The position numbers and the translations under genes were made by a program. From Macrosoma leucophasiata (Eukaryota; Arthropoda; Insecta; Lepidoptera; Hedylidae): a DNA stretch of 64,000 nucleotides. The DNA lies in contig JAWQUS010000001.1 in NCBI GenBank assembly GCA_036365455.1, positions 25,451,046-25,515,045 on the forward strand, read 5' to 3'. Numbering within the stretch: position 1 is the first letter of the stretch; each line of letters opens with the position of its first letter. Below the pieces are notes generated by a model, which saw only the letters and a list, made by a program, of their open reading frames with translations, ran no database searches and was not told the origin of the DNA. Below are positions 33,751-64,000 of the stretch, in pieces.

Positions 33751-33751
33751 G

Positions 33752-34212: not shown

Positions 34213-34245
<33 letters not shown>

Positions 34246-38455: not shown

Positions 38456-38510
38456 TGTGTACGACGTCCTTCTGGTTGGGGTGCCTGCCCTTTCGCCATG
38501 TGTGGGAACC

Positions 38511-39999: not shown

Positions 40000-40065
40000 T
40001 TTGCCGGCTGTTACTAATCTAGTAATCCGAACAATCTATATATAAATGCACGAATATAGGATAGA

Positions 40066-40145
<80 letters not shown>

Positions 40146-43600: not shown

Positions 43601-44307
43601 ATCCTTGTCGTCCTATTGATGTTTATTCCTTTACTCTTTTGAATATTAATTTTGAAAATTATCCCATTGTGGTCCGAGCTGGTGAGCCCCTGCTCCACGC
43701 GCCAGTCCTCCACCAGGTCGAGCAAGTCCTTCGAGCAGGCCGTCACATCCACAAAGCTGCTGTACGCTTTTCCGCCCCGTATCGTGTCGAAGGTGGGCGT
43801 TTCTCCCACGTTGAGTACCTGAAGGTCGGACTCTTCCAGGATCCCTGATAGTTCGTCTCCCCTGAGGTCGACCTTCGTGCTGCCCCACCAGGTACTCTTG
43901 GCGTTCGCGTCGCCTCCAAAGATAATCTTGCAGTGGCCTAGCGTCCTCAATACCTTTTTCAGCTGCTCCAAGTATGGCTCTATTGGGTGGTCTGGCTCAA
44001 AGTAGAAGGACACTACTGCGATTTCCCAGGCGCTGGTTCGGATCCTCACCACTACGATATTGTTAGTGGTGAGTTCTGGGTGCTGTAGGACGTCAAGGTC
44101 GGTATCGTATACCACGATAGCCGCCTTTACGCACCCTTCTCCTTGGTCAGCACACTGGTACACTCTAGCCCCTCGGTAGTCCTTCATCCTTTTAGCCCCG
44201 CCCACATACGGCTCCTGGAGCAGTGAGAGTGAAATATTACGTTGACTGGCTTCTATCATAAGCTCGCTGGTTGCGAGTTGTTTTCTTTGGAGGTTTGCTT
44301 GGGCCAC
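40654..44307 (-). CDS. Element B ORF2: endonuclease, reverse transcriptase, RNase H
   Basis: 1217 residues counted from GTG at 44307. Endonuclease: Asn5, Glu32 in QEPY, GGDANA 131-136, SDH 211-213. RT: SLDIEGAFD 592-600, CVQGSIGGP from 650, FADD 682-685. RNase H: FTDGSK from 931 with Asp933, Glu971, Asp995, then HAGLPGNERAD with His1038 and Asp1048. Finger: Cys1145/Cys1147, His1157, Cys1162. All catalytic residues are present and no stop occurs. The reading frame opens after a TAG inside the end of ORF1 and contains no ATG until residue 17, as in element A. Confidence 0.95.
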   Translation of the reverse strand: MAQANLQRKQLATSELMIEASQRNISLSLLQEPYVGGAKRMKDYRGARVYQCADQGEGCVKAAIVVYDTDLDVLQHPELTTNNIVVVRIRTSAWEIAVVSFYFEPDHPIEPYLEQLKKVLRTLGHCKIIFGGDANAKSTWWGSTKVDLRGDELSGILEESDLQVLNVGETPTFDTIRGGKAYSSFVDVTACSKDLLDLVEDWRVEQGLTSSDHNGIIFKINIQKSKGININRTTRIYNTKKANWGQFREKLAQLNNDSEINTTEINRINNKIELELKIIKYTDNIVKSSQENIPLIKNKNILTVPWWSDELAELKKAVATRKRRIRCAAPVRRAKVVDEYLKMKTEYECKARNAQTCSWKNFCEKQEKEGMWEGIYRVIGRTRKREEDMPLSKNGTTLNPAQSAALLAETFYPVDSERTDNADHQQTREAASRVNEWRYHEDHDPPFTMLELKTAVEGFNPKKAPGADGLTADICRQAVLQDPETFLALTNKSLQLSHFPDLWKMATVIILRKPGKDNYQDPKSYRPIGLLPILGKILEKMLVARLKWHLVPRTSTRQYGFMPQRSTEDSLYTLVNHIKSEIKAKKIVTLVSLDIEGAFDSAWWPAIKVRLAEEKCPVNIRRLIDSYLVSRKVSLRYAGEQVTKDTTKGCVQGSIGGPILWNLLLDPLLKQLESKGHYCQAFADDVVLVFSADTALEIELEANVALAHVHAWGVKNKLRFAPHKTCAMVLTKKLKFDTPRLHMAGINIKMSQSVRLLGLTIDSKLTFNTHVANVCRKAINFYKQLSKAAKVSWGLHPDIIRTIYVATVEPVITYAASVWAPAARKIGVQKQLNTVQRGFAQKLCKSYRTVSLNSALALAGILPLDLRIQEAASLYEAKRGSPPHGLGDREMERPVGFAEHPHPAQHMTIEFECLENQEQVDSRNEQTVRFFTDGSKIEGKVGAALSLWNSEAETRAIKLCLPSYCTVYQAELLAICRATSEVLRMGAGSFGIYSDSRAALQTVANQTSPHPLAVEARRNLAGALALGKDVSFFWVRAHAGLPGNERADELAKEAALRTRRKPDYDRCPVSFVKRQIRSETLDEWNRRYTSGTTAAVTKLFFPDVRGAYKIVRQLQPTGIVTQLMTGHGGLSQYLHRFKRKESPSCVCDPEQEETIPHILVNCPVHSLLRFNLEQKTGLKIIDSNLNILLRHKDTRNDFVHYCTKIMETVIQRNRIDI

Positions 44308-44362
44308 TGTGTACGACGTCCTTCTGGTTGGGGTGCCTGCCCTGTCGCCGTGTGTGGGGCCC

Positions 44363-45871
44363 TTAGCAATATGCGATCTTTGCTCTCGCTAAAGTCTCCC
44401 ACCGTCTTCGTATTGCACAGTCACTGCTGAAGGCGCTGTGTTCGACATTGTCAAGCTTGGCGCCCACGCAGTTGCAACACGTGGGGGGTGTCTCCGCCAG
44501 CCACTCTGCACAGTTAGTCCTCACATGGGGGCCTCCGCAGTGGCTGCATTTTTCCTGTTGCTCCTTACAGAAACGTCTACCGTGTCCATAGCCTAGACAC
44601 ATGGAGCACTGGACTAGAGGTGATTGGTCTGCTACCTTGACCTTCTGGATGTCTATATGGAGCTCCCCCCTGTCCAGGATTCTGTTGTATAGGGTCGGAG
44701 ACACCCTTATCACGACGTGGCTAGTGTGGGGGTTTCGGGTTCTCTTTCGGAATCGCACCTCGATTCTATCCTCCTCTCCACTGAGGTCGCGGAATATGTC
44801 CCGGTTCTGTTTCCGTACCGCTTCGAGGATGTCTTCATTGCTGACGAACTGCATGACACCCTTCAGAATCAGAAGTGGGTCCTTGTTCCGCACCTCTTCT
44901 ACGGAGAGGTGGTCCCCCGCTTGTTTCAGCCTTTCCTGGACCTTTTGCTGATCTGTTTTCGTCCTACAGCCGAGAATCACTTTTCTGTTCTTGGCCTTGC
45001 GCACCTGATCCACAGTAACCCAGCCGTCTGTTGCCTTCACGGCCTGCCTCACTCGGTTTAGGACGTCATCCCCGGTCTCGGTTTCGTCTTTTGACGTAAT
45101 CACGACCGAGTGTAGAGCCGTCCTTTCTGGTTGCGGTCTTACTGGTTGGCTGGCTACTGCGTTGGCGTATGTCATTCTGTGCGCCATGTTTTCGTCTGCT
45201 TTTTTCAGCGATTCATTGAGGCCTTCAATCTTTTGTGTGTTGTCCTGTATAAGTCTCTTATGTTCTTTTATTATTCCCGTTAACTCTTTTAGTAATTTGT
45301 TTTCCTCCACTACTTTTTCTTCCACTAGTGTCTCTATCTTTTCCTCTCTGTCTGTTATTTTCATTTTCCTGTCTGCCTCTGCCTCCTTCACTAGTTGATA
45401 GAGTCTATCTACTGCACCTAGAACCTCGTTTTTTATTTCTGTTTTAGTGTTTCTCGAGGCATTGAGGTGGGCTTTAGCCTTTTGTAGGCAGTCTCGCGCT
45501 TCTCGTAACCTATCTTTTTTGTCGCCGATTTGCTTGGTTCTTTCCATCGCACCAGGGCTCTGTATTGACTCCACTGGAGTACTGTTGTCAGTGGTAGAGA
45601 TGATGGTGCCTTTCTGTGGCTGTCGCGCTGTAGAGATGGAGGCCGATTGTTTCTTAGGAGTGGTGGGGGGGGCCGGTTTCGATTTGGTTGTTGGTGGAGT
45701 TTTGTAGGGAGCCGGTCCCGCGTTTACCTTCCCTATCTCCCATTCCCCTATACTCCGTCTGACATTCGGATTCGATGGTCCTGCCATCGTCGTCTCTACT
45801 GAAGGTGTGTCAGCGGGGAATTTCCCTGTCGTCTCATCGGTTTTCTTGGCTGGCGTACGGAAACCGAACAT
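44363..45871 (-). CDS. Element B ORF1 (gag-like nucleic-acid-binding protein)
   Basis: 502 residues from ATG 45871 (MFGFRTPAKK) to TAA. N-terminal Pro/Ser/Thr-rich region, about 120-250 coiled-coil-like Lys/Glu-rich stretch (DRLYQLVKEAEADRKMK), then an RRM-like globular part (HSVVITSKDETETGDDVLNR) and three zinc knuckles from residue 422: CSMCLGYGHGRRFC, CSHCGGPHVRTNC and CCNC...H...C. Such ORF1 proteins coat the element RNA and deliver it to telomeres. ORF2 follows overlapping in another frame. Confidence 0.93.
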   Translation of the reverse strand: MFGFRTPAKKTDETTGKFPADTPSVETTMAGPSNPNVRRSIGEWEIGKVNAGPAPYKTPPTTKSKPAPPTTPKKQSASISTARQPQKGTIISTTDNSTPVESIQSPGAMERTKQIGDKKDRLREARDCLQKAKAHLNASRNTKTEIKNEVLGAVDRLYQLVKEAEADRKMKITDREEKIETLVEEKVVEENKLLKELTGIIKEHKRLIQDNTQKIEGLNESLKKADENMAHRMTYANAVASQPVRPQPERTALHSVVITSKDETETGDDVLNRVRQAVKATDGWVTVDQVRKAKNRKVILGCRTKTDQQKVQERLKQAGDHLSVEEVRNKDPLLILKGVMQFVSNEDILEAVRKQNRDIFRDLSGEEDRIEVRFRKRTRNPHTSHVVIRVSPTLYNRILDRGELHIDIQKVKVADQSPLVQCSMCLGYGHGRRFCKEQQEKCSHCGGPHVRTNCAEWLAETPPTCCNCVGAKLDNVEHSAFSSDCAIRRRWETLARAKIAYC

Positions 45872-47142
45872 TTTGCCAGGGGATGCGTCAAGTCAGCCGC
45901 AGGTCGTAAATTTGTAAAAGTTGTAAACTACCTTCGGTTGACAATCGACAGTGTAGAATAAAACAAATAAAACAAGTTAATACACAGATAGAATTTTACA
46001 CAATTTGTAAACAATACTATTATACCGATTAATATATTTCCTTGTAGGATCCGGTCGTTCTAATTTCTAATGTGCTTTTTGTTTACAGGTCGGCGTGCAG
46101 CTCCAGTCACCGGCGTCAACGGGGTCTCGAGGTCAACGGGGTCAACGAGGTCATCAGGTTGGAGGGAAGAAGGAAGGAGACTGCACACGGAGCCGTTTCG
46201 CTGGGATCTCAGGTAAGTATTTTGTGTATTTTTATTATTTATGAAGTCAAGTTGACCCTACCTAGAGCTTGTCTGATTTAAGCTTATTAAGTTACCCTTT
46301 TTTGGGGCTTGCCCAAGTCACACTACGTGCTAAAATGTCCTACACTAGGAAACATCAAGAATTTACTAAAATTTATTTTTGACTCTACCTAGAGTCAAAC
46401 TCTATGTTCCGATGAATAGCTCTCGTCGAGCCCTATCAATCGATACCAAACTCGGGTAACCCAGCTATAGTAGTTTCCGAGTTATCAGTACTCCGATTCT
46501 CGGACTAATTTCGTGCAAAGTGTCCGAATCTCGGAAAATTCGTGTATCTCGGGAACCACGGGGCGTAGAGTACCCGACCCTGGGCTTTCCTGAATGGGGC
46601 CGCCGAGAGCTATCCGATGGTGTGGTTTTCAGCACTACAAATTTGTTGGGCCTGAATTTGGCTGAAATTTGGCTAAAAACAAAGTAGAAGTCCTATTAAG
46701 TCGACAAGAGGAAACCCCAGTGCTCTACGACCTCTGGTTGGGAAGATATAGAGGTTTGAAAATTTTCAAAATGGCGGCTGAGCTGTCAAGTGCTCTGTTT
46801 GCCGGCGTCTATCTACCTTTCCAGATGCCGCAGGACACCCGAGTTTGGGTTCGCTGAACCCGTCTCAGTCTGCTCTCCACGGTGGTACCACTTTCAGGAG
46901 GCAAGTTATTCAGGACGCTGAAATTACCTGAAATTGGGTGCGATAGAAAGAATGAAGTCCCCTGGTACCAAATCTGAAGTCGGCGACTCCGTGCGACCTC
47001 CGGTTTCAGAGATATGTAAGTTTAAGTAAAACCAAGATGGCGGCCCAACTGTCAAAGTGTAACTTTGAAGGGTGATATCTCCGGAACTATGAGGCGCAGG
47101 AAGTTCCGGTTTTCAGGGGGGATGATGCGCAGGATAGACAGG
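45872..47142 (-). promoter_or_regulatory. Element B 5' leader with two YY1/Pho-like motifs
   Basis: Untranslated leader, where R1-type elements carry an internal promoter (family knowledge). Two copies of a motif, CAAAATGGCGGCTGAGCTGT (46767) and CAAGATGGCGGCCCAACTGT (47033), lie 266 bases apart within two loose repeats. AAGATGGCGGC is the classical YY1/Pleiohomeotic binding core. The distal copy lies about 90-110 bases from the element's 5' end. Confidence 0.5.
46089..46212 (+). other. Exon-like segment antisense to element B
   Basis: On the plus strand, a candidate branch site (TTCTAAT) and pyrimidine-rich TTTTTGTTTACAG precede 46089, and CTCAG|GTAAGTAT follows 46212. Both splice signals are near consensus. 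The 124-bp segment is GC-rich with GTCAACGGGGTC repeats. No protein family recognised. It may be a chance or captured exon of an antisense transcript. Confidence 0.35.
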
Positions 47143-47158
47143 TTAGGTTAGGTTAGGT
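47141..47158 (+). repeat. Short TTAGG stretch between B and C
   Basis: GGTTAGGTTAGGTTAGG: about three telomeric units left between B's 5' end and the next T run. Confidence 0.95.
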
Positions 47159-47172
47159 TTTTTTTTTTTTTT

Positions 47173-47514
47173 GAATCCACCAAGAATAACTCTTGGTGGG
47201 AAGTTACAAAAGCCGTCGAGGCCCTCGCTTAGGGATACGGGCGACCTCGGGACTATAAAGAACACTAGCTAAATGAATGATTCTATTATTGGAAGGATTT
47301 TTAACGGGAAGGAGATATATAGGGAAATCAAATACATAATGATATAATATGCAACTTTTTACAAAATTGATGCATGACTAAGGGTTTACAATTTCTTAGG
47401 TAACAATTACTATCTAGGGTATAAGATTTTTTTTTTTTTTTTTTTAATTATTATTATTTATTTATTTTTTTTATTATTATTAGGTTCTTCTTTTTTTTTT
47501 CCTTTACTATTATT

Positions 47515-47517
<3 letters not shown>
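47173..47517 (-). mobile_element. Inward terminal segment of element C (or a separate truncated element)
   Basis: Next to the T run is a 9-bp hairpin (47177-47185 / 47191-47199, CCACCAAGA...TCTTGGTGG). A 26-base motif at 47221-47246 (core CCTCGCTTAGGGATACGGGC) matches 61619-61644 of element D at 21 of 26 positions. T-rich sequence follows, as in D. On the right it meets TTATTAGG and a pure run of 47 T (47518-47564), which could be internal to C's 3' UTR or the tail of C itself. Confidence 0.6.
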
Positions 47518-47567
<50 letters not shown>

Positions 47568-48169
47568 GAGTCCCCTTTTTCATCTTATTATTAAGTGTAA
47601 ACAAAACAGAAGCTCATTTCCTATGAGAAGAACATAAATTTTCAAGGTTATTGAATGTAAAGGTAAAAAGAAAGTTGCATGTTAGTGTTAGGTACAATGT
47701 GACTTATGCGATATGTTACAAATGATCATTTTATCACTAATTACGAGCAGATTAGCAAGTACTTGATTTACAAACTTTGAAGAAAAGGTTAAGATCAAAA
47801 TATTAAGAATACAGTGGTAAGCTATAAGAAGGAGTTAAGGGAGAGTTGCTTATTTAAACTTAGCTAATATGACTTATGTGGTATAAAATTAATAATAATA
47901 CTAATCAGCCTATGATTACATTCAGAGCAGAAAATACAGTCTCCTTCTTCTATTCAATAATTTATGTACAGAGAATAATCAGATAGTTAATCATTTTGAG
48001 GATACTCATCTAGAGGAAACAAGCGCATCAATCATTTGATCAAAATATTCCTGCTACAAACTGAAAATCTGCATTAATAACAATAAATTTAATTTAGCAA
48101 CAAACAGTTTTATTAATAGTCTAAATCGAATATATACATGAGTGATATCAGTTACTGATTGTTTTAATA

Positions 48170-51100
48170 TGGGTTGCGTAGAAAAAGAAACAAAAGTAAA
48201 CTTCTAAAGTATGAGTTATATTTACGTAATGAGTGAAGTAGTGATAGTGAGCTCATAAGGAGTGAAATGAAAGGATGTGAAATGAATATTTATTGTGTAT
48301 TTACAGTGTGCCATATCGATGTATGAGTTTAATTAAATAGGTCAGCGGCAGCGCCCCCCAGTGGGACGCCGCTGTAACAGAGTCATTACCTTAATTCAGA
48401 AAGGGCTATGGCTCAGTCAGGCGACGAGGCAACTCGATGAGGCCTCAAACTAATACCCATGCTAGGTATAAGAACCATGTAGGTCACCAGACGTAGCCAT
48501 GTAGCCAAGTTTAATATTTTAATGTTAATTCTTTTATATTGTGGCACTCCGAATTAAAGGGTGATAATTCATTGGTCCGGCTAGGCAAAGTTACTCTAAT
48601 AATGTCATGTTAGGTGTTTGATAGGTGCCTGTGAGACAATACACATGGGATAATGTAAAGGAAAAAGTGATTTTTATATTGGCATATTTATGTTATATAT
48701 GTAATGTCATGGGTAGGTAGTGTTTGTGTGAGTGTGTAGGTAGAAGATTGCAAATTGTAGGTATAATGTAAGGAATGTGTGTAACGACTTGGGTTAATTT
48801 TGTATATGTAGGTATGTGGGTGGGAGATATGAGTTATAGGTATTATATATGTTGTGTAAATGATGACATAGATAATTTATATGCATATAGGTGTTTGAGT
48901 GGAAAATGTAAGTTGTAGGTACTATGTATGGTGCGTATTTAAAGGCATGGTTGGGTATTCTACATAAAGATGTGTAAGTAAAAAATGTTAGTTGTAGGTA
49001 TTGTGTATGTATTGTCGTGGGTGAGAAATGAGTGTATAAATAGGTGGGTGGAGGGTACAGGTTGTAGGTATTATGTATAATATATATATTCATGTATATA
49101 TACTGACATGATTGAGTATTATCTATAAAAATGTGATGGTAGAAATTATTGGCTCTAGGTGTTTTGAATGTAATGTCGTGAGTGAGTAATATGTATATAG
49201 ATGTGTGGGTGGAGGGTAGTTTAGGTGTTATGTATATGTATGTGATGACATGGATTAGTAGTTGAATGTAGTTATGTGTGGGTGGGGAATATAAGTAGTA
49301 GGTATTATGTTGCTTGTTTGCAGATTACGTATTAAAAGAAAACAAAGGTAAACTTCTAAAGTATGAGTGGTATTTACATATTGAATAAATCTTTAATAGT
49401 TATCTCATATATAATTGTAATAAATGTTATCTGATGATGTATTTGGTGTGAGATGAGCATTTAAAGTGCAATGAAGTGAGTTGGATGTTTATTATATATT
49501 AACAGTGTGCCATATGGATGTGTGAGTTTAATTTAATAAGTCAGCGGCAGCGCCCCCTAGTGGGACGCCGCAGTAACAGAGTCATTACATTGATTCAGAA
49601 AGGGCTATGGCTCAGTCAGGTGACGAGGCAACTCGATGAGGCCTCAAACTAATACCCATACTAGGTATTAGAACCGTGTTGGTCACCAGACATAGCCATA
49701 TGGTCAATGTTAATGTTTTAATATTAAATCATTCAAAGTGTTGCACTCCGAATTTAAGGGTGATAATTCATTAGTCTGACTAGATGAAATTGCACCGATA
49801 TAGTATGTTAGGTATTTGGTAGGTGAATGCGAGGTGATGAAATACATGGGGTTATGTATAGGAGAAAGTGGTTTTTACATTGGCATATTTATATTACATA
49901 TGTAATGTCGTGGGTAATAAGTGTTTGTGTGAGTGTGTAGGTGGAAATTTGCGAATTGTAGGTATCTTGTAGGATATGTGTGTAACGACATGGATTAATG
50001 GTGCATATATAGGTATATGGGTGGGAGATATGACTTATAGATATTGTATGTAATATGTATGCGGTGACATGATTGAGTTTTGTATATAGAAGTGTGTAGG
50101 TAGAAATAATTGGTTACCAGGTGTTATGTATGTAATGTCATGAGTGAGTGGTATGTATATAGTTGTGTGGATGGAAGGTAGTTTTAGGTGTTATGCATGG
50201 TATGTGTGTGGTGACATGGATTAGTGGTATAATATAGGTATGTGTGAGTGGGGAGTGTAGGTAGTAGGTATTATGTTGCTTATTTGCAGGTTATATAATA
50301 AAAGGAAACAAAAGTAAACTTCTAAAGTATAAGTGATATTTACATAATTAATATTATATAATAAAAGAAAACAAAAGTAAATTTCTAAAGTATAAGTGAT
50401 ATTTACATAATTAATAAATCACTGATATTAGACTCATATATAGTAGTAATAAGATTGTATGATGATGTATATGGTGTAGGATGGACATTTATTGTGTAAT
50501 GAAGTATGTGCAGTATTGAGGATATTATGTTAGATTTATTAAATCATAGGCAGCGCCCCCAGGGGGGGCGCCGCAGTACCAAAGTCTTTACCTCGATTAA
50601 GGGTAGGCTGTGGCGCAGTCAGGCGACGAGGCAACTCATCGAGGCCCCAAACTAGGACCCATACTAGGTATTAAGATTACCATATTGGTCACCGGACATA
50701 GCCACGTAGCCGAATTTAATATTTTATTATCTATACATTTCCCATGTGGGCGCTCGTTCGGAGCGCCACATGTAAAATGTATCTAGCATCTAGCATCGAA
50801 CAGGGTCACAGGGCTTAGGTGAAGTTATGGTGGGAATACACTTATCACGTGAGTGATAGCGCGTCCACAGTGCCGCTTGAAAATGTGTTTTAGCAGTTTT
50901 AATAAATTAAGACAAAATGATCAAAGTAGGTTATAGGTATGACGTGGCGGCTAATACAATTTTATTAATAAGCTGAAACTTAAAATTGAATGATAATTAA
51001 TGTAATGGTAACTGGGTGTAATGAGGATTGACCCTGATGTAGATTGCGATTTAATTTCTGTATCCCGCCATCTATGGGCGAGCATTTAGTATCAGAATCA

Positions 51101-53170
51101 GATTGTATGATATGGGTGGTAATTTGTTAGTCAATCTAGATCAAATTACGCCAATAATGTCTTGTTAGGTATTTGGTGGGTAAATAGGTAATGAAGTACA
51201 TGGGGTTATGTATAGGAAAAAGTGATTTTCATATTGACATATATATGATGTATGTAATATCATGGGTAGGTAGTGTTAATGTAAGTGTGTATAGGAAAAT
51301 ACAAATTGTAGGTATTATGTATGATATGTACGTATTGGCATAGGTAAGTAATATATATGTATATAGGAGTGTGAGTGGAATACGTGAGTAGTAGGTAATA
51401 TAGTAGAATGTATTTCGTATTAGTGACATGTTTGAGTATTATATGTAAAGATGTGTAGGAAAATATTGCTGTAGGTGTTATGTATATGATGTCGTGGATG
51501 AGAAATATGTATATAGATAGGTGAGTGAAAGGTATAGGTTGCAGGTATTATGTATAATATATATATGTAATGTAATGATTAAGTATTCAATATAAATATG
51601 TGTAGGTAAGAGATATTAATTATAGGTATTATGTGTGTAGTATCATGGTTAGTGATGTGTATATAGACGTGTGAATGGAAGGTAATTTTAGGTATTGTGT
51701 ATAGTATGTACCTATGTGATGACATAGATGAGTAGTATAAATATAGGTATGTGTGGGTGGGGAATATAATTTATAGGTATTATGTTGCTTATTTGCAGGT
51801 TACATAGTAAAAGAAAACAAAAGTAAACTTCTAAAGTATGAATAGTATTTACATTATGAGTTGATCACTGATAGTGAACTCATATAGAGTAATAGTAAAT
51901 TTATGTGATAATATATATGGTGTGAGATACACATTTATTGTGTAAAGATATTTGGGCAACATTAATGCTGTAGTTAAGTTTATTAAGTCAGCATCAGCGC
52001 CCCCAATCGGAGCGCCGCTGTACCGAAGTCGTTACCCTAGTTAAGTAAAGGCTATGGCCAAGTCAGGCGACGAGGCAACTCAACGAGGCCTCAAATTAAG
52101 ACCCCTACTAGGTTACAAACCATGTTGGTCACCAGACATAGCCATATAGCCAAATTTAATGTTTCAATATCAATTCATTTATAATGTGGCACTCCGAATG
52201 AGTGCCATCTAGCATCGAGCAGGGTGACCGGGCTAAGACGAGGTTATGGTAGTCGCCCACTTACCACGTGAGTGATATCTCGTCCGGGGTGCCGCTTGAG
52301 AATGTGTTATGATATTATTGATAGGTTAGAGAGAGTTGGTTAAAGTAAGTTATTCGTAGGACGTGTCTTCTAATGAAAATTTATTAGTGTGCTGGAATTT
52401 AATATTGATTTATAATTGGTGTAATGGTCGTTGTGTGTAATGAGAGTTGACCTTAATGTGGGAGCATTATCCAGTTAAAGATTGCGTTTTAATATCTGTG
52501 TCCCGCCATCTATGCGCGAGAGGTTAGTATCAGAGTCGGATTTGTTCTATCTCAAAGGTGGTAATACATTAGTCTGGCTAGGTCAAGTTAAATAGGTACG
52601 GTCATGTTGGATATTTAATAGGTATTTGCAAGATAATGTGGCGCGTAGGTTGATGTATAGGCAAAAGCGATTTGTGTGTTGGTTTATTTATGATATGTAT
52701 GTAGTGGCATGGGTAGGTAGTGTTTAAATAAGTGTGTAAGTGGAAATTACGATTTATAGGTATTATGTTTGGTATATATGAAAAGGCATGGATGAATGGT
52801 ATATATTTAGGTATTTGAATAGAAGATATGTATTATATGTATTATGTGAAATATATATATAATGTCATGGATGGGTAATATTTATATATATGTGTGTGGG
52901 TGAGAGATACATGTTGTAGGTATGATGTGTGGTATGTATTTATTGACGTGTTTTAGTGTGATTTACAGAGATGTGTAAATAGAAGATATTAGTTGTAGGT
53001 ATAATGTGTATGGTGACATTAATGGATAATATATGTGGATGGAAGGTATAAGTAGTAGGTATTATGTGTGGTATGTAAGTGATGACATAGATGAGTAGTG
53101 TAGGTGAGGTTATGTGTGGGTAGAAAACATAAATTGTAGGTATGATGTTGCTTGGGTGTTGGGTGGGATA
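48170..53170. repeat. Tandem array I: four 1.0-1.5 kb degenerate units with GC islands
   Basis: A marker ACAAAAGTAAACTTCTAAAG starts units near 48190, 49340 (one change), 50305 (partly duplicated at 50365) and 51815. Each unit carries a conserved GC-rich island of about 175 bp (48341-48520, 49540-49720, 50545-50730, 51986-52170). The island contains GCGCCCCC, CGCCGC and AGGCGACGAGGCAACTC. Units 3 and 4 carry an extra segment with CACGTGAGTGATA and TCCCGCCATCTATG that units 1 and 2 lack. Between islands the sequence is full of TAGGTATTATGT-like motifs. No coding capacity. Confidence 0.85.
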
Positions 53171-56100
53171 GGTATTATCAGTAGGTGTAAATTAGTATTG
53201 CTATATTGCAAGTTCTGCAAATATTTGTATAGGTAGGTAAATATTGTGTTATGTTAAAGGTAATATATTTAAAGTTACATTTTAAGTCACAAAGCAACAT
53301 GAGTTACTTAGCCGTACCCACATGGCAATAAATGTATGTCAACCTTAATATAATATGGGCTTGTTTGTACAAGTGCCGTGCCGCGCAGCCCGGCAGCGCG
53401 GTGCGCCGCCGGATGGCGCCACCGTGGCGGCGTCGCATTAATATGAAAAAGTTATCGTTGTGATAACATCGACTGGTGGTAGGAATGCGCAACTCAATCC
53501 AATATTGCAAATTGAAGTGGCTCGAGTGACGGACTGGTAAAGCATGGGGCTGTATAAGGCCGGTGTACACTGGGTGTGGAGACATCCTTGTAATACTTTT
53601 ATTAGTAGTTAAGTAGTTCGTAATTTAGGAGTTGTTATAAGCAGAGGGTCAGATTGTTTTTGGTATATTATTATTATCTGGGTATGTTGTTATTATTACG
53701 ATCATGATGATAACAGGTAGATGAAAGTTTGTTTGTAAGTATATGGTGGTTTGTTTATATAGGTGTGGGTGTGTAAATAAATAACGTAGATGCCCATAGT
53801 TAAATAAGTATGATGTTGTGTCTTATGTATTATGTTGTAGGTATATATAACGTAGGTTTAATAATAAGGAATTCTTATAAGTGCGCATATACGTATATAT
53901 GTTTAAGGTGTCTATCATGATATAGTTAGGTATGTTGAGATAAGGTATGGGTATAATAATGCGATAACGTAATATATAATAGAGAATCCCTTCAATATAA
54001 GCGTTAGTTAGGTATAAGGGAGTAAAGCTTACTATACCTATATAGTGTATGCTGGTAATATGAGTATGTGTGATGAGGTATGTGTCTATTCAACAGAAAC
54101 AAGTGTAATAGGGTATCAGTATGACAGTGTGAGGATGGTGTGTGGAATTTGATGAATTTTGGTGTGTCACCGGCTTTATGTACTTTGTTGTCATGCACGG
54201 CGAGCGTGAGACGCGAGGTGGTGAATGTAATCTATTTTTTTTAGAGGGCGACGTTGCCGTCATTGTTGGTGGCTTGTGCAGGGAATTTTATACAAGCAGA
54301 GAATTTATGTTTCTTGTTAGAACCGAAATAATTGTCTAAGGGTAACTGCACAGTCTATACACGGTAAACTTTTACAAAAATGAAGTTGATTTGTTGAGTG
54401 GGGTATGACTGTCGGACTGATTAATTAATGGAATAGTATGGTTTAAATACATTAGTACCGGATATATGTGAATTATATATATAACTACGGTTTACGTATA
54501 TGTGTGAATGTATATAAGGGGTATAGTATATAGTATACATATTAGTTAAGTCAAAGGTATATATGGTTTATACGCTAGGCTGTATTAGTTAAAGGGCGAG
54601 TATCTATATAGGTGTATGTTTAGGAGAAACATTGTTCTATATACTAATATATGGTTAATCTAGTGTGTTAGTGTGGTGATGGGGCCGACCGCTTGTGTGC
54701 GAGTAAATCTAAGTTGAATGTTATTTATTTGTACATAGTTACGTATTATGTGAGTTGTTGCGATTTTAGTGTGCAATCGGCCTTATGCAGGTGTGCATTT
54801 GTTTACTCCGTCGAGCGGCGGCCGGGCTCAGGAATGTGGTCAAGTTCGAGCGGCAGGTTATGCATTTGAATAAAATAGTGTAGCTATATGGGTCTATTGT
54901 AACTATGCGATATTGTGTTTAAACTGGATAGTGTAGCTATATGTAGCGGTTTTATGTGTACGATACGAGAATATCGTATGTGTTTATACGATTCATAGGA
55001 ATGCGAGGTTGCCGCTCGAGCTGCGGACAGACCTTGAACGCCGAGCTAGGTCAACAAGATGATGAGAGCACTCATATGATTACGTAGGTGTGTATATAAA
55101 GATGTCGAGCAGATTTGTTATATGCAAAATCAATCTGAGCTGTTGTATTGTGGAGGTTTAGTGCCTATGTATGTAGTAAGATATTGCATGCCAGTTGGTC
55201 CAGAGCTATAGTGTCACCGATAGTCTAGATTACTTAGCATGCAGATATGTGAGTTTTCTGGTTTTTAGTAGATTGGACAGAAGCTCACTAGGTGCAGCAT
55301 TAGGTGCGTCACGTATCCCCCCGGATCCATGCGTTAATTGATAGGGAGATATCAATTGAGTACATAGGTTCGGGGGGGGTCGGGACCCAGGCAATGCACC
55401 CTGCGGTGTCCACAACCAGTAGCACGATTCATCCGTGATCTCATCAGGGATGAAAGGTGCGCAAGCTGTGGTCACGCAATCATGAGTTACTGTCTGTACC
55501 TAGTGTTAATTGTAAGTCGAAGAGCTATCTCATCATAGATACTGTTAGAATAAATAATGAAGTATTAGGTGCGTCAATTCTATGTTCGTAGATTGTTTTG
55601 CCTTGTCAGTATAAGTGAAAAGCTTTCAAAGAGAGCAGTACAGCTGGTAATGGTAGGTACCTATTGGTGTAGTGAGAGTAATAGTACGGTATTAGTTAGT
55701 TATTTGAGTTCCGTGTGTACGTGTATGTTGAACACGTTATATTATGGAGTGTAATTCTATGAATGTTGAAAATTGTATTATAAATAGATAAGTATTAGTG
55801 TAAATACGTTATAAAGAAATGGGTAAGTGCCTAGGTAGGTATATACAAGTAAATAGTAGGTGGTAAGTAGTAATATCGATGTTACCTTGTATGAACGATT
55901 TTAGTTGTTTCATATATAGTAAAAAGGTTAGGTTATGTAAGGGATAGATAGACGGAGCAAGATCGCTTTACGGTCAAAGCGTCTTGGTCCGCCTCTAGCA
56001 ATTCCACTGCGATCAAGTTATAGTGAGTTGTATATGACGTCAGTGCACCAGTAGGTCCAGTTCAGAGATGAGAACCGGGGCACGTGGCGCATCGATGTGC

Positions 56101-56480
56101 CAATTTATAGGTATAGTTATCTGTACTAAGAGTCCCCTACTTGCATTGGACTTTGGTGCCTCGGCGCTCTCCGGGCCCATTCATTTATTGATATATCATA
56201 TATCAATTAGATAAATGGGGCCGGCAGGGGTCAAGGCACACACAGTGCAAGAATGTTGCCACCACCTAGTCAGTCCGCTGTCGTAAGCATGGCCCGCGGC
56301 AGCCGGCGTACTGGTGGTGGTGTCATATGAATAGGAGGGACATTGTGAGGCCAATTATTATATTATATATTAGCCATTGCTCACCTGCTTAATCGCAAAA
56401 GCGGATGAGAGGATCTATGAGTAAGTTCATACTGTTGTGTGGCATCAATGGGTAATTGAGGTGTTGCGTATGCTACCAAT
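53171..56480. other. Non-coding middle of element C with structured GC patches
   Basis: C-poor plus strand broken by GC-rich patches (53373-53440, 54800-54840, 55290-55450, 56100-56330). Two long hairpins: 55317-55379 (C6 against G8, apex AATTGATA/TATCAATT) and 56174-56222 (GGGCCC...GGGGCC base, ATTTAT and TTGATATAT stems). Open frames here are short and resemble no family. Confidence 0.6.
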
Positions 56481-56489
56481 AGCTAAGGT

Positions 56490-59390
56490 AAGTATTTGAA
56501 AACAAGTGTGAGTTAAAAGAGGTATGTGTAGGTGTATGTAGGTATGTTATTATGTAGTTGAGGCAGTAAATATATGGTTAATTTGTTTAAGTTTTGTATA
56601 AGGTCTATTATGTGTTAGATTAGATAATAGTTGTGGTGAGCAAGTAGGTTATTAAGGTAAATATGTACGTATTGTAGGTGATAGGTGAATGACTGGTTAA
56701 CCGGAGTTGATGATGTACTTTGTGTACGGTACATAAATTACATTGTTTTGTATATTAATTATGTGGTATAGGTATAAATATATATGTATACGCGGTGTAA
56801 GATCATTTATTTATGAGATAGGTAATAATATGGGCGAATGTGACCGGTGATTGGTTAGGTATATATATATAGTAGGTAGAAGGAAAAAGTAGATCACGCC
56901 ATAGGATTTACATTGAGTAGTACAGTAAAATATGTGTCAAGTTGTGTGGTTATACTGTACTGGTATATAAGGGGTATATTTATTAAGTGTTACTATACAG
57001 TTGGATAAACAAAATTATATGTATACTTTCCGACAAAAGTATGAGTGAATCTAGGGTGATTATGCTAGGCTGGTATATACGGATTGTGTATCTGTATGTA
57101 TGTAATGGATTCATAAGTAGGTATAGGTTCCTAGATAACGTTACTCATTTGTATGGGCTGGTGTGTAAGGTGGGTAATTAAGTATGCGGGTTATTATAAA
57201 TTATAAATCGATAGAATATAATATAGTTGTTTGTGAGTGTGTTGTGGAGTATATAAGGGAGTTAGTTAGTAGTACTAGGCATAAGTTTGGGGAGTATGTA
57301 AGTATATGCAGATATGTTGTATATTATTTATACCATCATAGGTAATTACATTATTCACGTATGTCGTAAGTGGGTAAATGTTTAGCCGATGTTGATAACG
57401 TAATATTTTCACCCGTTGGAAAATTGATTATGTTGTTTAATATTTATTATTTGTACATATGCATTGTATACAGATTTAGATATGTTTGTATACGTGGTGT
57501 TAGATTAAGTTTAACGTGTGTGATAAGTAGATGTATATAGGATGTAAGTAATGGTGTATAGGACGCGTGTAGATTTACGTTGAGTAAGTGAGGTATGTGT
57601 TGGATTATATAGTTGTACAGTACTAATATATACGGTATGTACGTAGAGTACTAGATGTATATAAGTAAATAAGGCTTTTGATGTGGGTTGATAAATATTT
57701 GGATGAGTAAGGATGTGTGTAGTATATTAGTATGTATAGGTTATCTGCCTATAGGTATGTAGTGTTACGTTTACTACTAATGGGTTGGGTATGTATATAA
57801 GTATAGGAATTTGTTAGTGTAGGTATGTATGAGTATAGGTAGGTATATTATTATACTGTTGGGGCAGTGGTTTATATGGTTAATATGTGCGGTAGTCTTA
57901 TATGTCATACGTATAAAATCGGTTATATGTTAGCTTGTATACCAGTTTTAGTGAGTTGGAAGGTTTTATATTACATATATGGGTTATGTTATATTCAGGT
58001 GATTGTGGTGAACATGTTCGTATGTGAGTGGTGTGAGTAATAGGTAGATATCTGGTTGACCTATACTGATTTCGTACTAAGGGTACGGTGCGAGGATTAA
58101 TATATATATATGTGAGCAAGGTGTAAAATAATTCATTACGGTGTAGGTGAGAATATGGGCAAATATGACTGGTGATTGTTTAGTTATGTATGGGGTAGGT
58201 AAGAGTATATATAGATCGAGAAGATTTTAATTTGAGTAGTATAGTGGGTTATGTGTCAGGTTGTGTGGTTATGCAGTACAAGCATATAAGGGGTATGTGA
58301 CCGTGTACATGATATGTGTCTACAGCGATAAATAGGCAAGACTATATGTATACGAGACAAACAGTATATGAGTGGGTCTGTGTTTATTTTATTGAACTTT
58401 TATATAAGGGTTGTGTGTCTGTAGGTATGTGGTAGATGCATGAGTAGGTATAAGTAGGTAATGTTTCTTATTATATGGATTGATAGGTATATGTGGTGAG
58501 TGTAACGTAAGTATACAGGTTAATATGAGTTACAAATAGATAGCGTATGCTATACATAGTTACTTGTAGGTGTGTTGTAGAATAGATAAGGGGGTTGGTC
58601 AGTAGTGCTAAGCATAAGTATGGAGTATGATCATATGTGTTAATGTTGATGTACGTGATAAGAATAACATTTATACTGTTATAGGTGGTTATAGTGAACA
58701 AGTAGATTGTAGACTAGGAACTAGTTTAGTTATATTGATGACGTAAGTTGTCAAACCATTTGGAGATTGGTTATATTGTACGATTATTTGGATTCATGCG
58801 TTGTATGCACATATAAATATGTTTGTATTCATGGTATTGAGTTAAATTTAGCCTGTACATGGGTAGTTTTATATAGAGTAAGTATTAGTGTATAGGATGC
58901 ATATTTGTTTACATATAGTAGTACAGTAAGGTATATAATAAGTTATGCAGTTGTACTGTACTGATATATATGGGGTATGTACGCAGAGTAATAGATGTGC
59001 ATAGGTAATTATTGCTTCTAATGTGGGTTGGTTGGTATGTGTAGGTCGGAGGTGAATGTACTAGGTATATTAATATGTAGAAATAATTTGCCGGTAAATA
59101 TGTAATGAGTGTAAAGGCAGATATACTTAATTAGAGTTACTTATATGTATGAATTAGTACATATAGTGGGTATAAGGTAAGTATACAGATATTTTAGATA
59201 AATCGGTTAAATATTATAAATGTACTTATATAGTTGTGTTGTAGAATAGATAGGCAGATAGATTGGTAATATTGAGCATAGGTGTGGATGGAAGTATGTG
59301 TATATAAATTAATGTAATTATATAAGATATGGTAATTATGTATGGATATTATATATATTAGTGTGTATGGGGTGAGGACATTCGGGATAG
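56490..59390. repeat. Tandem array II: about 1.3-kb degenerate units
   Basis: TGTGTCAAGTTGTGTGGTTA at 56932 recurs at about 58252 (TGTGTCAGGTTGTGTGGTTA). TGGGGTATGTACG-type segments recur at about 57620 and 58970. GTGTTGTGGAGTATATAAGG at 57240 recurs at 58572 and again, shorter, near 59230. Spacing is 1.32-1.33 kb with a last partial unit. The plus strand is almost free of C: 57781-57840 has no C and 20 G. Confidence 0.75.
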
Positions 59391-59392
59391 AA

Positions 59393-60724
59393 TTATGTAG
59401 TGTAGGAGATAGTGGCGCGGGACATACGGTCCCACTTTTGATGTTCGGGGCAGCCCGGGCTGTACGCCGGATGGCATGCGTCAGCGCCCGTGCGGCCCGC
59501 CGCAGTGCAGTTCCTGCAGCGAGGGTCTCGGCCCCGTGCAGGACAGGCTCGGGTGTCGTGACCCTCGCCGCAGTAGCCGCATGCGGCGTCCCGCCGGCAG
59601 TCCCTGGCGAGGTGGCCGAAGCCACAGCATGTGAAACACTGTGTTACAGGTGATTGATCCGATGCAAAGGCGACCTGGTAGCCCACCCGAACACGTTGGT
59701 CAACCAGTAGGCGCCAAACCCCAGGCGGGACCTCCAAGATCGCACTGTGTGTGGAGCTGTTAGGGCGCCGTATACGGCGGAGGACTCTGATCTCCTCTGG
59801 TTCGACAGGTGTTTTGCCGAGGAGAAACTTATTTTGCCCACATAGGGCCTTGACCAGCTCCGAGTCCGTCAGATCTGGGGTGAAGCCCGAAAGGCGGATC
59901 AGAGGCCTCCGCGTACGAGCCGGGCTGACCCGAAGGTGTGTGCATGCCTGTTTGATCTGGTCCGTTAGTATCTGTCTGTCGTCATCAGAGTCACAGCTTA
60001 TGACTACGCGTTGATCACGCAGCTTCGCGACTCTGTTGACGCCAATTCCTAGATTTATAACATTGACATCCGTCTTAACCTGCGTGAGTATGTGGTCACT
60101 GGAATGGGCGGAGTCTTCGGAGGAGACCACCACCGCGTATCGTGGGGTCGCCACCGCCTGGGCGTAGGACGTCGGCGCCTGGGGACGATGCGGAGGCACC
60201 GTTCCCATTGTAGTAACCGACGTCCCACCCCCAGTCGGCGGGGAGGGTCCGGGCTCAGGATGGTCCACCTTCAGCGACCGAATCTCCTTCTGCATATCAG
60301 TAAGTAGGGAAACTATCTCCGGGGTGTCCGGTATATTATAGGTTCTTGCGATTTCCAGGAGGAGATTCTGCCGGTCCTGGTAGAGCTCAACAACCATATC
60401 ATACATTGAACGGAGAACATTTGTAACACCCTGCTTAATACTAGTCTTAAGATTCCCTGACTGGTCGAGAAATGCCATGGCTTCTCGCATGAGCCTTTTA
60501 GCCTGAAGGGCCTGATGGTCCTTGGTGATGGTCGCGACTTCGGGGAGCTCCGGGGCCGATGAGCGTCTCGAGGGCGGAGTAGTCAGTTCAGGGCGAGCAA
60601 TGACTATTGGGGCAGAGGTGGTGGGTGCCGGAGATAAGAAGGAGTCAGATTCTGACTCAGATGTAGGGTCCGGCTTAGGTTTGACGGATGTTGCCCGCTT
60701 CTTTGTCTTAGGAGTGTGAAACAT
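59393..60724 (-). CDS. Element C ORF1: TRAS/R1-type Gag, the element's only protein
   Basis: 443 residues from ATG 60724 (MFHTPKTKKRATS, aligned with MFGFRTPAKK of B) to TAA at 59393; an in-frame GTG/other upstream extension is less likely. Layout as in B ORF1: Pro/Ser-rich N-terminus; helical segment GNLKTSIKQGVTNVLRSMYD, matching TKTEIKNEVLGAVDRLYQ of B; RRM-like middle starting YAVVVSSEDSAHSSDHIL; three zinc knuckles from residue 363 (CFTCCGFGHLARDC, CGYCGEGHDTRAC, CRNC...H...C). The knuckle region to the stop is 81 residues, as in B. No frameshift. GC-rich against AC-rich surroundings. Right after the stop coding capacity ends; no ORF2 follows. Confidence 0.92.
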   Translation of the reverse strand: MFHTPKTKKRATSVKPKPDPTSESESDSFLSPAPTTSAPIVIARPELTTPPSRRSSAPELPEVATITKDHQALQAKRLMREAMAFLDQSGNLKTSIKQGVTNVLRSMYDMVVELYQDRQNLLLEIARTYNIPDTPEIVSLLTDMQKEIRSLKVDHPEPGPSPPTGGGTSVTTMGTVPPHRPQAPTSYAQAVATPRYAVVVSSEDSAHSSDHILTQVKTDVNVINLGIGVNRVAKLRDQRVVISCDSDDDRQILTDQIKQACTHLRVSPARTRRPLIRLSGFTPDLTDSELVKALCGQNKFLLGKTPVEPEEIRVLRRIRRPNSSTHSAILEVPPGVWRLLVDQRVRVGYQVAFASDQSPVTQCFTCCGFGHLARDCRRDAACGYCGEGHDTRACPARGRDPRCRNCTAAGRTGADACHPAYSPGCPEHQKWDRMSRATISYTT

Positions 60725-61472
60725 GGTGACACCGCCAAATAGTACAGACGGACAAAACACACCGTATATGTTCCTGGTATCAATATGAGGATACTCAAAC
60801 GCTTCAGTATCCGCGAAAACACAAAGCACAAAATGTTGTTTATGCAAACAAAAGGTCACGCAATGTCAGACTCAGCCGAGATTACAAGCTATGTATTGAC
60901 TCACCAACAATGACGATACTTCACTACAGAATTGGAAAATTCAATTTCACGAAAACGGCAGGTCCGATTTCGGTGAAAATTTTTGTACGTATGTAAGATG
61001 CGTACTTATGCGTGACGATGTATAAAAATTTGGGGGTCAAGGCGACTAATCGACCGCCGCACGCACAAGTTTAATCGTATAACTCTCAGGTCAAAGTTCA
61101 AGCACTGGTTTTAAACACTGAAAGCGCTGAGGCTACACAAAAGTATATGATTAGGAGCACTATTTAATGGGGAGTTCACTGGTATATAGTATATAATTTT
61201 AGGGCAACTGTAAATAGGAAAAAAACACTGTATGAAGCGCACAAGTCGCGCACTTAGTACGTTCAGAACTAAAAATTGAGTTTTTTACACCTGGTTTTTT
61301 TGTTTTAAGTCCGATTTCCGTGATTTTGGTGTCTTTGGATAGACAATCGCAGCGCGCATCCGGAGATATATTGCACTTTACACTTTTTGCACTTTTGAGA
61401 TTTTTTGCGGTTTTTAGGGTCGGAGCGATGTAAAATCGGTGCGCTCGCGTTCGCGGACGGTTTAGGACTCCC
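60725..61472 (-). other. Element C 5' leader
   Basis: About 750 bases between the gag start and the next telomeric repeat, with no open frame. The outer 100 bases are GC-rich (GCGCTCGCGTTCGCGGACGG) and would include the transcription start if C is transcribed like other R1-type elements. It does not share the AGGATAGACAGG end of A and B. Confidence 0.55.
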
Positions 61473-61534: not shown

Positions 61535-64000
61535 TTTTTTTTTTTTTTTTTTTTTTTTTTTATCCTGGTGTAGTTATGTTACACCAGGGTTTTAATGTTA
61601 TAGAAGGGAATGACAAAGGTCCTCGCTAAGTAATACGGGCGGCCAGAGTCAGACTAAATGAGATCGTGGAGAGTGTTGATTGCGAAGCGATCTGGTAGTT
61701 TAAATTCGTGATTGAATCAACTTATTAACAATAATTTTCTTTCTCTCTTCTTTTTTTTTTTTTTTACTTATGTATTTTGTGTTATTTTTATTTTTATGTA
61801 TTTTAATTTTATTATTATATAGGTATAATATATATATATATATAATTGGTATTTATTTACATTATATATTTTATCTTAATAATTAATTAATATATATATA
61901 TATTTTTTTTTTTAGGTTCTATTTACACCTCAGGAGCATGGATCGGACATTCTAAGGTATGTGGTCATAATTTTTTTTGTTTGTTATGCAATTGTATATA
62001 TTTTTAATTTAATCTTTTATTTCTTTTACAGGAATGAATTTATACAACGTTTTTATTGAATTCTTTTAATGTGTTGATTATTGTTTTTATGTGGCTTATG
62101 TAAGTAAGTTTGCTACTTTCTTTTTTTACTATTTCTGTTAGTGAATATGGGTCGATTATATCGTACATGCTGCAGGTAAGTTCATGTTTATTTCTAGTTT
62201 GATTATATTTAGGACATTCTTGGAGTAGGTGCTGGATATTCTGAACGGAAGTGTTATCACAGGGGCATAAGCAGTTATTTTTTATTTTAAATCTGTGTAG
62301 GTATTGAAGATGATACCCATGGCCTGTCAGAATCTGAGTAAGTTCGAATGAGCGCGAGTAGTGATCAAACAAATTTTTAATAGAATCTAGATTTGGGCAT
62401 AATTGTTTAGTGTGTAATCCGGTCGTGGAATTGATATACTTTTCATCACTGTTTATGTACGATTCTTTTTGTATTAGGCGTTTTGGATAGCTTAATGGAA
62501 ATTTGCTGAAGGCTGGGGATTTATGTAGACCGGCAGCGGATTTGGCTGCCAGATCGGCCAACTCGTTGCCGGCTAGGCCGACGTGAGATCTTATCCATAT
62601 TATTTTCAGCGTTCCTGTGCGCATTATGTAGTGGATGGTTTGATGAATAGAGGTTACTGTTGAGTTATGGCTGTTAGGATTATTGAGTTCCTGGATGGCG
62701 GACATGGAGTCTGTGAATATAGCTGCATCCCTTATATTTGCTTTCAGGCACCATTCGCATGCCATCAGAATTGCGAAAGTTTCTGCCTGGAACACTGAGC
62801 AGCAGGAATGCAGCTTATATTTCCTTGTAATATTATTTCCATCGGGTGATATAGCGACATAAGCTGCGCCCACCAGATCGTCATGTTTGCTACCATCAGT
62901 GAAGATTCTAGTGGTAAATGCTGAGCAAAAGCTGTCGACTTCATCCTGGGTGGTGGCAGTATAGTGGCCAATTCGAATGCGTTGCGATGGGTGGAGGAGC
63001 TGTGACGGGTGAGCTGGTTTGTCTAGGGTGACATCACTTGGTAGGTGTGGTGTCGTTCCATTGATTTTGGTTTGTTGGATCTTGGCTATTTCAGTAACTT
63101 TAATGTCTAGAGGAGTGAGTTCGGCTAAGGCAATTGCCGAGATGGTGGGTATTGTTCTGAACCCCCGCAAGATTTTTATCGCAAAGCCCCTTTGTAATGA
63201 TAGGAGGCGGTGTCTAACGATCTGATACTTCGTTGCGCCATGCCATATCACGGCAGCGTACGTCACTATAGGTTCTATAACCTGTCTATATATAGTGTTG
63301 ACATTGTCAGACTGCACTCCCCATGTCGGTCGGATGAATGTACATAATTTTCTGTAAATTTTTTGGACTTTATTTATGATGTAATTGACATGACTAATGA
63401 ACTTTAAGTTTTTATCTATAATAACTCCTAGTATTTTTATTTCATTATTGAATTTTATTGGCTTAGAATCCATGAAGAGTTTTACATTTTTAGATTTTTG
63501 GGTGAAGTAAATAGCCCGTGTTTTGTCAGGACCGAAGGTAAGTTTAACGCTCTGTCCCCAGTTAAATATTGCTTGTAGTACTTGATTTGCTTTATTCTCT
63601 AATTCTTGTATTTTGTTCGCAGAGACAATGAGGAGCACGTCGTCAGCATAAGCCTGCAGGTGGCACTCATCAGGGAGGTTGAAGAACAGAAGCTCGTCCA
63701 TGATTAAGTTCCAGAATAGGGGCCCCAGAACGGAACCCTGGATACAACCCCTGGTAAGTGTTTTACTGGCCTGTGCCTCTCCGTAGAATAAGGTAGCAGT
63801 TCTGTCATCCATGTAATTTTTTATTAAATTGTAATAATTTTGTGGGCATTCGATCACACGTAGCCTATGCAGAAGTGCCGGCCACCACGCGTGATCAAAT
63901 GCTCCCCTGATATCTAATGAAATTGCGATGACCTGTTTTTTATTTTGTTTTGCTGTGCGGATGGTATTTATTGCAGTATTTAGCGCATCAACAGTGGAAG
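61535..64000 (-). mobile_element. Element D: second TRAS/R1-type family, partial
   Basis: Poly(A) tail of 27 (T run 61535-61561) against TTAGG, then a 9-bp hairpin (61564-61572 / 61580-61588), the 26-base motif at 61619-61644 shared with C, a T-rich 3' UTR to 62039 and ORF2 running out of the window. Same orientation and target as A-C. Confidence 0.9.
62040..64000 (-). CDS. Element D ORF2: reverse transcriptase and RNase H (5' part outside the window)
   Basis: Open from the window edge to the stop at 62040. RT: STVDALNTAINTIRTAKQ and SLDIRGAFDHAWW at the edge, CIQGSVLGPLFWN, catalytic YADD. RNase H: FTDGSKHDDLVGAAYVAI, IFTDSMSAIQEL, HVGLAGNELADLAAKSA. C-terminal finger CLCPCDNTSVQNIQHLLQEC. 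Same order as ORF2 of A and B, but clearly a different family. The GTG at 63857 is not the start; the frame continues upstream. It is the only RT family in the window whose 3' end matches element C. Confidence 0.92.
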   Translation of the reverse strand, partial: STVDALNTAINTIRTAKQNKKQVIAISLDIRGAFDHAWWPALLHRLRVIECPQNYYNLIKNYMDDRTATLFYGEAQASKTLTRGCIQGSVLGPLFWNLIMDELLFFNLPDECHLQAYADDVLLIVSANKIQELENKANQVLQAIFNWGQSVKLTFGPDKTRAIYFTQKSKNVKLFMDSKPIKFNNEIKILGVIIDKNLKFISHVNYIINKVQKIYRKLCTFIRPTWGVQSDNVNTIYRQVIEPIVTYAAVIWHGATKYQIVRHRLLSLQRGFAIKILRGFRTIPTISAIALAELTPLDIKVTEIAKIQQTKINGTTPHLPSDVTLDKPAHPSQLLHPSQRIRIGHYTATTQDEVDSFCSAFTTRIFTDGSKHDDLVGAAYVAISPDGNNITRKYKLHSCCSVFQAETFAILMACEWCLKANIRDAAIFTDSMSAIQELNNPNSHNSTVTSIHQTIHYIMRTGTLKIIWIRSHVGLAGNELADLAAKSAAGLHKSPAFSKFPLSYPKRLIQKESYINSDEKYINSTTGLHTKQLCPNLDSIKNLFDHYSRSFELTQILTGHGYHLQYLHRFKIKNNCLCPCDNTSVQNIQHLLQECPKYNQTRNKHELTCSMYDIIDPYSLTEIVKKESSKLTYISHIKTIINTLKEFNKNVV

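Follow-up and report, generated by a model that had tools for sequence, protein, structure and literature searches.

The 14.3-kb element at 47158-61472 on the minus strand of the window (the whole 64-kb stretch of DNA analysed here) is, with a probability that we put at roughly 80%, a TRAS-type non-LTR retrotransposon, specific to telomeres and non-autonomous, that has retained Gag alone and that would be supplied with reverse transcriptase (RT) by autonomous elements of another clade, E, through a 3' RNA structure. It is a member of one of at least three gag-only families (A, to which the window copy belongs, B, and C), and many chromosome ends of this genome carry gag-only elements with about 10-13 kb of G-poor DNA. 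A first, sequence-only reading of the window had proposed a non-autonomous telomere element that converged on the strategy of HeT-A, and the analysis bears this proposal out: the element lacks an RT, is telomere-targeted, points its poly(A) toward the centromere and has a G-poor sense strand. It works like HeT-A and looks like an independent invention of the telomere strategy known from fruit flies.

The window is the terminal stretch of C1, a contig of 25,515,045 bases in an assembly of 616 Mb and 61 contigs, and its right edge is thus the assembled contig end. From 34 kb rightward it holds a stack of minus-strand retrotransposons with their poly(A) ends toward the centromere, in the order T1, T2, the gag-only element, and E4. 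TTAGG separates the stacked elements except T1 and T2, where the poly(A) of T2 abuts the 5' end of T1. T1 (34213-40069) and T2 (40070-47139; the ends of both are approximate) are of TRAS type, T2 being so called by its orientation and domains rather than by comparison with a named TRAS protein. T1 has an open ORF2 (34802-38455) and a gag in two frames; T2 has a gag at 44363-45871 and an ORF2 at 40654-44307. Both ORF2s contain EN, RT and RNase H domains, and T1 is 89% identical to T2. E4 (61535-64000, minus strand) is an element of autonomous type with an ORF at 62040-63998 that runs off the contig end, matches Pfam RVT_1 and RNase_H, and is 36% identical to T1; its best-scoring named protein matches are lepidopteran, and a 3' core, described below, lies at 61621-61640. 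Near-identical copies of E4 elsewhere in the genome have 1250-aa ORF2 frames, with a gag frame in front on C11, and E-clade ORF2 frames read on C13, C5 and C2 span 1240-1261 aa; other open frames above about 800 aa in the genome searches may extend across N and carry no weight here. (Note that the genome contains 27,748 and 24,445 matches to a TTAGG 20-mer. The junction between the chromosome arm and the telomere, at 33745-34156, is a 15-bp array, AGTTAGGTTAGCTCG, in 21.7 copies, in which the telomere repeat is mixed with GCTCGA, and a 30-bp repeat with the same GCTCGA motif adjoins it.)

The gag-only element is flanked by TTAGG/CCTAA at both ends and is multicopy in its own genome. Its 5' end at 61472 abuts a (GGTTA)n array that starts at 61473, and its 748-bp 5' UTR (60725-61472) is sharply bounded, with 13 genomic copies of which all but one begin at base 1-3 of this UTR, the exception beginning at base 15. 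The gag ORF at 59393-60724 is intact and encodes 443 aa from the ATG (488 aa as an open frame). Behind it lie about 12.2 kb that hold no sense ORF longer than 99 aa wholly inside, which we divided into blocks nc3 (56450-59392; 6.6% G on the sense strand, with a 1.33-kb imperfect tandem pair at 56.8-59.1 kb), nc2 (53300-56449; 13.9% G) and nc1 (48180-53299; four block copies spaced 1.0-1.45 kb apart, with sub-repeats of about 79 bp, the repeats spanning 48.2-53.2 kb). The element ends in a 3' RNA signature at 47173-47272, with a predicted covarying stem-loop (core at 47223-47242) and a predicted 10-bp terminal hairpin 4 nt before a poly(A) tail of A15 (47158-47172) that faces the centromere and is flush with TTAGG; all of these features are on the minus strand. 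Thus the one intact TRAS-type gag ORF, the roughly 12 kb of non-coding strand-biased repeats (nested, with 6.6-14% sense G per block) and the poly(A) end against TTAGG that had been noticed at first sight are all present. Separately, about 350 bp short of the true 3' end, an internal tract of about 48 A on the sense strand (47513-47564) follows TTAGG-like sequence; it might be the mark of an old 3' transduction that supplied an E-type 3' end.

We searched this single genome with the Gag protein and obtained 120 matches from the 95 of 569 first-look candidates that were scored. (Excluded from the counts that follow were rows short of the gag C-terminus, second rows of one gag, and the interstitial fragments C26:3574568 and C12:5303947.) Among the scored candidates, family A has at least 13 full-length gag copies that are 97-100% identical, all 2.2-54 kb from a contig end, and three partial copies at 96-99%, and the matches listed include the related gag-only families B (at least three gags) and C (at least 22). 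A search with the 5' UTR, for which 18 of 18 candidates were scored, returned the same 13 A copies, three B copies at 71%, and two interstitial fragments. From the contig starts, 20 stretches of 10 kb were read, eight of which were partly or wholly N. The copies on C20 and C14 are colinear with the window copy through the 5' UTR, gag and nc3, and the C20 copy also includes nc2 and the beginning of nc1; its nc3 and nc2 are 98.7% and 97.7% identical to those of the window. The copy on C17 is 5'-truncated and starts inside nc2 directly behind CCTAA. Ten expected 3' ends were read: two, on C5 and C32, have poly(A) against CCTAA, five were partly or wholly N, and three (C28 twice, and C27) had no end, with the core there about 0.9-1.0 kb past the place predicted from the window copy. 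The C5 copy has the same gag, followed after 12.3 kb by a 3' end that is identical over the last 100 bases, terminates in A12 directly at CCTAA, and matches at 89.6% over 757 columns, the poly(A)-rich stretch included. The C32 3' end matches at 80% over 577 columns and has the same hairpin and a core with a single difference, at a free position. A second copy with the same gag and non-coding layout was thus found on C5, with further ones on C20 and C14 as far as these were read and a truncated one on C17. Telomeric arrays are hard to assemble, and the gag could have been joined to satellite DNA as an assembly artefact; the colinear copies, the pairing of gag with 3' end on C5 and the truncated copy rule such misassembly out and make this explanation extremely improbable.

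Consistent with the initial observation that ORF2 is missing, tblastn of 47158-59392 with the RT proteins and gags of the window gave a best ORF2 match of E 0.29 and a best match overall of E 0.089, which was to a gag. (We also considered a decayed TRAS with remnants of ORF2 and rejected it, as no remnant was detected in the non-coding stretch.) In the genome, we looked for ORF2 on the same strand downstream of gags that reach the C-terminus, using E, T and U queries (68, 38 and 39 rows, respectively) in searches that score a limited candidate set. None of the 41 A, B and C gags had an ORF2 match within 9.5 kb downstream (0/13 for A, 0/3 for partial A, 0/3 for B, and 0/22 for C), whereas an ORF2 was found within 2.5 kb of 8 of the 10 gags at 40-51% identity to A and of 35 of the 41 gags at 27-36%. 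Note that a missing match is no proof for any one copy, because two of these ten gags (C31:15089576, at 51%, and C26:18023356, at 47%) and 6 of 41 T-type gags were also without an ORF2 match within 2.5 kb; the former two are possibly further gag-only lineages, or else missed matches. Moreover, the ORF2 of U elements was detected only when the U query was included, which, together with the limited candidate set, means that single absences say little and that the contrast is the evidence. Reading onward from one B and one C gag, for 1.7 and 1.3 kb, we found that G made up 4.7-4.8% of the bases and that no match to ORF2 had an E-value below 0.06; past these stretches, the absence of ORF2 in B and C rests on the genome searches.

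The nearest relatives found for the A Gag are TRAS-type gags; it is 26% identical to the T2 gag over 481 columns (E 4e-46). CCHC zinc knuckles are visible in its sequence; a Pfam search of Gag gave no match. An AlphaFold model (mean pLDDT 61, mostly 73-90 in the RRM part) predicts that Gag holds two RRM-like units, at 195-268 and 275-356, and Foldseek with this model retrieved tandem-RRM proteins with low TM-scores, the best at E 6.6e-6. In protein searches of other species only P0001, P0002 and P0124 (43-45%) and P0003 (20%) were recovered, proteins that were seen without their genomic context, and searches of viral contigs and plasmids gave no match. In a tree, the gags of A, B and C group together (100/100), separately from the E-clade gags (98/100), the relation to T, U and database gags not being settled by the tree. 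Within family A, the gag is open in 12 of 13 copies, the exception being C5:23296554, which has an in-frame stop (this codon was skipped in the dN/dS calculation). The dN/dS of the gag across the A copies of this genome is 0.32 (mean dS 0.026, dN 0.0085), and the protein is altered at 22 of the 52 variable codons, as against about 75% without constraint (p 6.7e-7, an approximate value because the A copies are related by descent). Between families dS is 1.4-2.6, near saturation, and dN is 0.20-0.34 for the whole gag and 0.08-0.22 for its C-terminal part. The gag is thus under purifying selection. The protein may serve to target the telomere, as had been suggested at the outset.

What the gag-only elements have in common with the E clade lies at the 3' end. 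Within their final 150 bases, A and E4 share a 28-base stretch in which 23 bases are identical; none of 2000 shuffles scored as high (best shuffle 29, versus 31). A 20-base core pattern was derived from this stretch and, with one mismatch allowed, matched at 79 sites in the 616 Mb, whereas its reversed control matched at none. The core follows the gag at a distance of 9.8-13.9 kb in 23 of the 41 gag-only copies (7 of A, including one partial copy, 2 of the 3 B gags, and 14 of the 22 C gags), with no ORF2 match between gag and core in any of the 23, and was not found within 15 kb of the gag in the other 18. (Behind the gags of C20 and C5:23296554 the next core is 19.4 kb on, beyond an ORF2, and was taken to belong to the next element.) The core also lies within 1.2 kb downstream of 20 of 28 telomeric E-clade ORF2 matches at 54% identity or more: in 4 of 5 cases for the E4 family (at 403-434 bases), 5 of 5 for the family at 76% (409-441), 8 of 8 at 70% (562-678), 3 of 7 at 60-61% (138, 1076 and 1142), 0 of 2 at 63%, and 0 of 1 at 54%. 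One of the eight core-less cases, on C2, has a core that is one base shorter.

Seven distinct 3' ends, a small set, are predicted to fold alike, two of A, four of the E clade, and one on C10 that lies behind 4 kb of G-poor DNA; two of these seven sequences are near kin, and B and C are represented only by the 20-base core. In the common fold a stem encloses the core, and a terminal hairpin of 6-10 bp sits 0-8 nt before the poly(A). In the first stem 89% of cells are paired, compared with 32-44% in slid controls, and its covariation score was reached by 1 of 500 shuffles. Two of five measures for this stem were unremarkable against shuffles (157 of 500 shuffles reached the number of pairs with two-sided changes, and 50 of 500 that of pair types), and six of its 16 pairs never vary. 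RNAalifold gave 24 pairs, 14 of them with two-sided changes. As judged by these folding comparisons, the 3' ends of A and E have in common an RNA structure of two hairpins, in which compensatory changes occur.

Because the 3' structure is common to A and E, the E clade is the likely source of the RT for A, with E4 as the candidate donor in the window. SART1 proteins mobilise a reporter RNA in trans if the SART1 3' UTR is present, according to the portion of PMC7265360 available to us, and for such elements an RT that acts on foreign RNA via its 3' end is therefore an established step. The 5' ends give no comparable link: none shared by A and E was seen (two E-clade copies differ by inspection), and beyond A the 5' UTR search returned only B and two fragments, with no E. 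Alternatively, the gag-only element might be mobilised by another telomeric RT, of the TRAS type of T1 and T2 or of the U type. T and U elements occupy the same kind of arrays, and the U gag is closer to the A gag (42% identical, and 44% to the B gag) than are the E-clade gags (24-28%; E4, 28% over 180 aa). However, the 3' ends of T1 and T2 lack the core, none of the listed core matches falls within 15 kb downstream of the U ORF2s on C10 and C12, and the autonomous bearers of the core that were read belong to the E clade. We therefore consider a donor other than the E clade unlikely.

With E as the probable donor, we envisage the following cycle. Transcription from the 5' UTR would give an RNA of about 14 kb, from which Gag would be translated; Gag would package this RNA. 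The RT/endonuclease of autonomous E-clade elements would recognise the two-hairpin 3' structure in trans, nick TTAGG and, starting at the poly(A), copy the RNA into the array. Every insertion would add 10-14 kb with the G-rich strand running toward the end of the chromosome, the same arrangement as in telomerase repeats and HeT-A. Of the insertion products, we observed poly(A) junctions with CCTAA, 13 copies with sharp 5' ends and one 5'-truncated copy. We also weighed whether a subtelomeric segment that is no longer, or never was, mobile could have been spread by ectopic recombination or conversion. The two copies on C28 have no silent difference and one protein difference in their gags, as expected from unequal exchange; the poly(A)/CCTAA junctions, the matching 5' ends, the truncation at CCTAA and the constraint on gag argue against such spread, which we regard as very unlikely.

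HeT-A of Drosophila, which belongs with TAHRE and TART, is a Jockey-clade element that has its promoter in the 3' end of its neighbour, and to our knowledge it is the one well-studied Gag-only telomere element to date. With one well-studied case, it has been difficult to say which of its peculiarities (no RT, a long 3' region, a G-poor strand) are important. A second, TRAS-based case beside telomerase-type repeats would separate the features forced by the lifestyle from accidents of Drosophila, and it makes three questions testable: whether the strand bias recurs under selection, how elements come to share an RT, and why an element would keep a private Gag with an outside RT. Among titles and the beginnings of abstracts, from a literature whose subscription papers lay largely outside the search, we found no gag-only telomere element in Lepidoptera. 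The excerpt of PMC5537684 at hand describes HeT-A as encoding only Gag, taking its RT from elsewhere, and having its poly(A) toward the centromere, a G-poor strand in the centromere-ward 5'-3' direction and a long 3' region. The A elements likewise encode Gag and no RT, lie head to tail at chromosome ends with their poly(A) toward the centromere, and have a G-poor sense strand and a long 3' region. Unlike HeT-A, they sit inside TTAGG arrays beside telomerase-type repeats, which they have not replaced, and are for this reason not filed as HeT-A; they also have a TRAS-type gag and 10-13 kb of non-coding DNA, and their partner E shares the 3' structure and not the gag, whereas the gag of TAHRE closely resembles that of HeT-A (PMC5537684, same excerpt). 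TRAS elements insert in the CCTAA strand of TTAGG in a fixed orientation (PMC7265360, in the portion available), and A inserts in TTAGG/CCTAA in that orientation with a gag of TRAS type. A is nevertheless not an autonomous TRAS, because it lacks ORF2, with its endonuclease and RT, and it is roughly twice as long as the window's TRAS-type elements.

Two other elements invite comparison. MoTeR2 of Magnaporthe oryzae is telomeric and RT-less and shares its 3' end with an RT-bearing partner, as A shares a predicted 3' structure with E; the accessible sections of PMC7367193 add that MoTeR2 also shares 860 bp at its 5' end with the partner and has an unrelated 786-bp insert, whereas the 5' end of A is its own and its gag is intact and under selection. 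The mammalian HAL1 (half-L1) is a LINE derivative with ORF1 only, as A has only gag; it is derived from L1 itself, in contrast to A, whose gag does not come from its likely partner E, and the part of PMC5753468 available to us does not describe a telomeric location for it.

The composition of the sense strand (A 35, T 30, C 25 and G 10%) modified one earlier statement: the strand is G-poor rather than simply A/C-rich. By block, the non-coding DNA has 6.6-14% sense G, compared with 19% in the chromosome arm; four A non-coding stretches have 6-11% G, and those of B and C about 5% where read. Four-fold sites of the A, B and C gags have 25-27% G, and hence a simple mutation bias across the entire element fails to explain the G-poverty. 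The three families share a plan, with non-coding DNA that is largely unrelated (only short matches are shared) and equally G-poor where read. The element could be real and its non-coding DNA nevertheless be neutral satellite growth without a telomere role, as the internal tandem repeats and the paucity of long matches among A, B and C might indicate. Against this stands the G-poverty of all three families beside the G content of the gag four-fold sites, which speaks against a plain strand-wide mutation bias, and we regard neutral growth as possible, at rather less than even odds. The non-coding RNA may instead serve as telomere filler. The fuller proposal of a long-lived clade in Lepidoptera that arose independently of HeT-A, replicates in trans with E-type machinery through the 3' structure and keeps its RNA for a telomere-like strand bias is a tentative one, to which we give almost an even chance; if it is true, DNA that is G-rich toward the end is added in 10-kb steps inside a telomere of telomerase type.

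The motif TAGGTA occurs 43, 7 and 19 times in nc1, nc2 and nc3, against 6.8, 3.1 and 7.0 expected, an excess that arises partly because the repeats multiply it, and exact TTAGG is not enriched in these blocks (8, 7 and 1 seen; 8.8, 5.2 and 7.3 expected). A rationale based on G-quadruplexes was rejected: neither strand of the non-coding DNA has a G3-type motif (motifs of the two-G type number 9 against 0), and classical quadruplexes thus do not explain the strand bias. As separate observations, four-fold sites of ORF2 have 15% G in E4 (window 62040-64000) and 9% in E70 (L021 5011-8730), versus 28-31% in T-type elements; an interstitial cluster of TRAS-like gags with 442-aa frames lies far from contig ends at C12:8.47-8.57 Mb and C10:14.04 Mb, most of them with an adjoining ORF2; and at 27223-28185 the window holds a 307-bp unit in 3.1 tandem copies with 100% matches.
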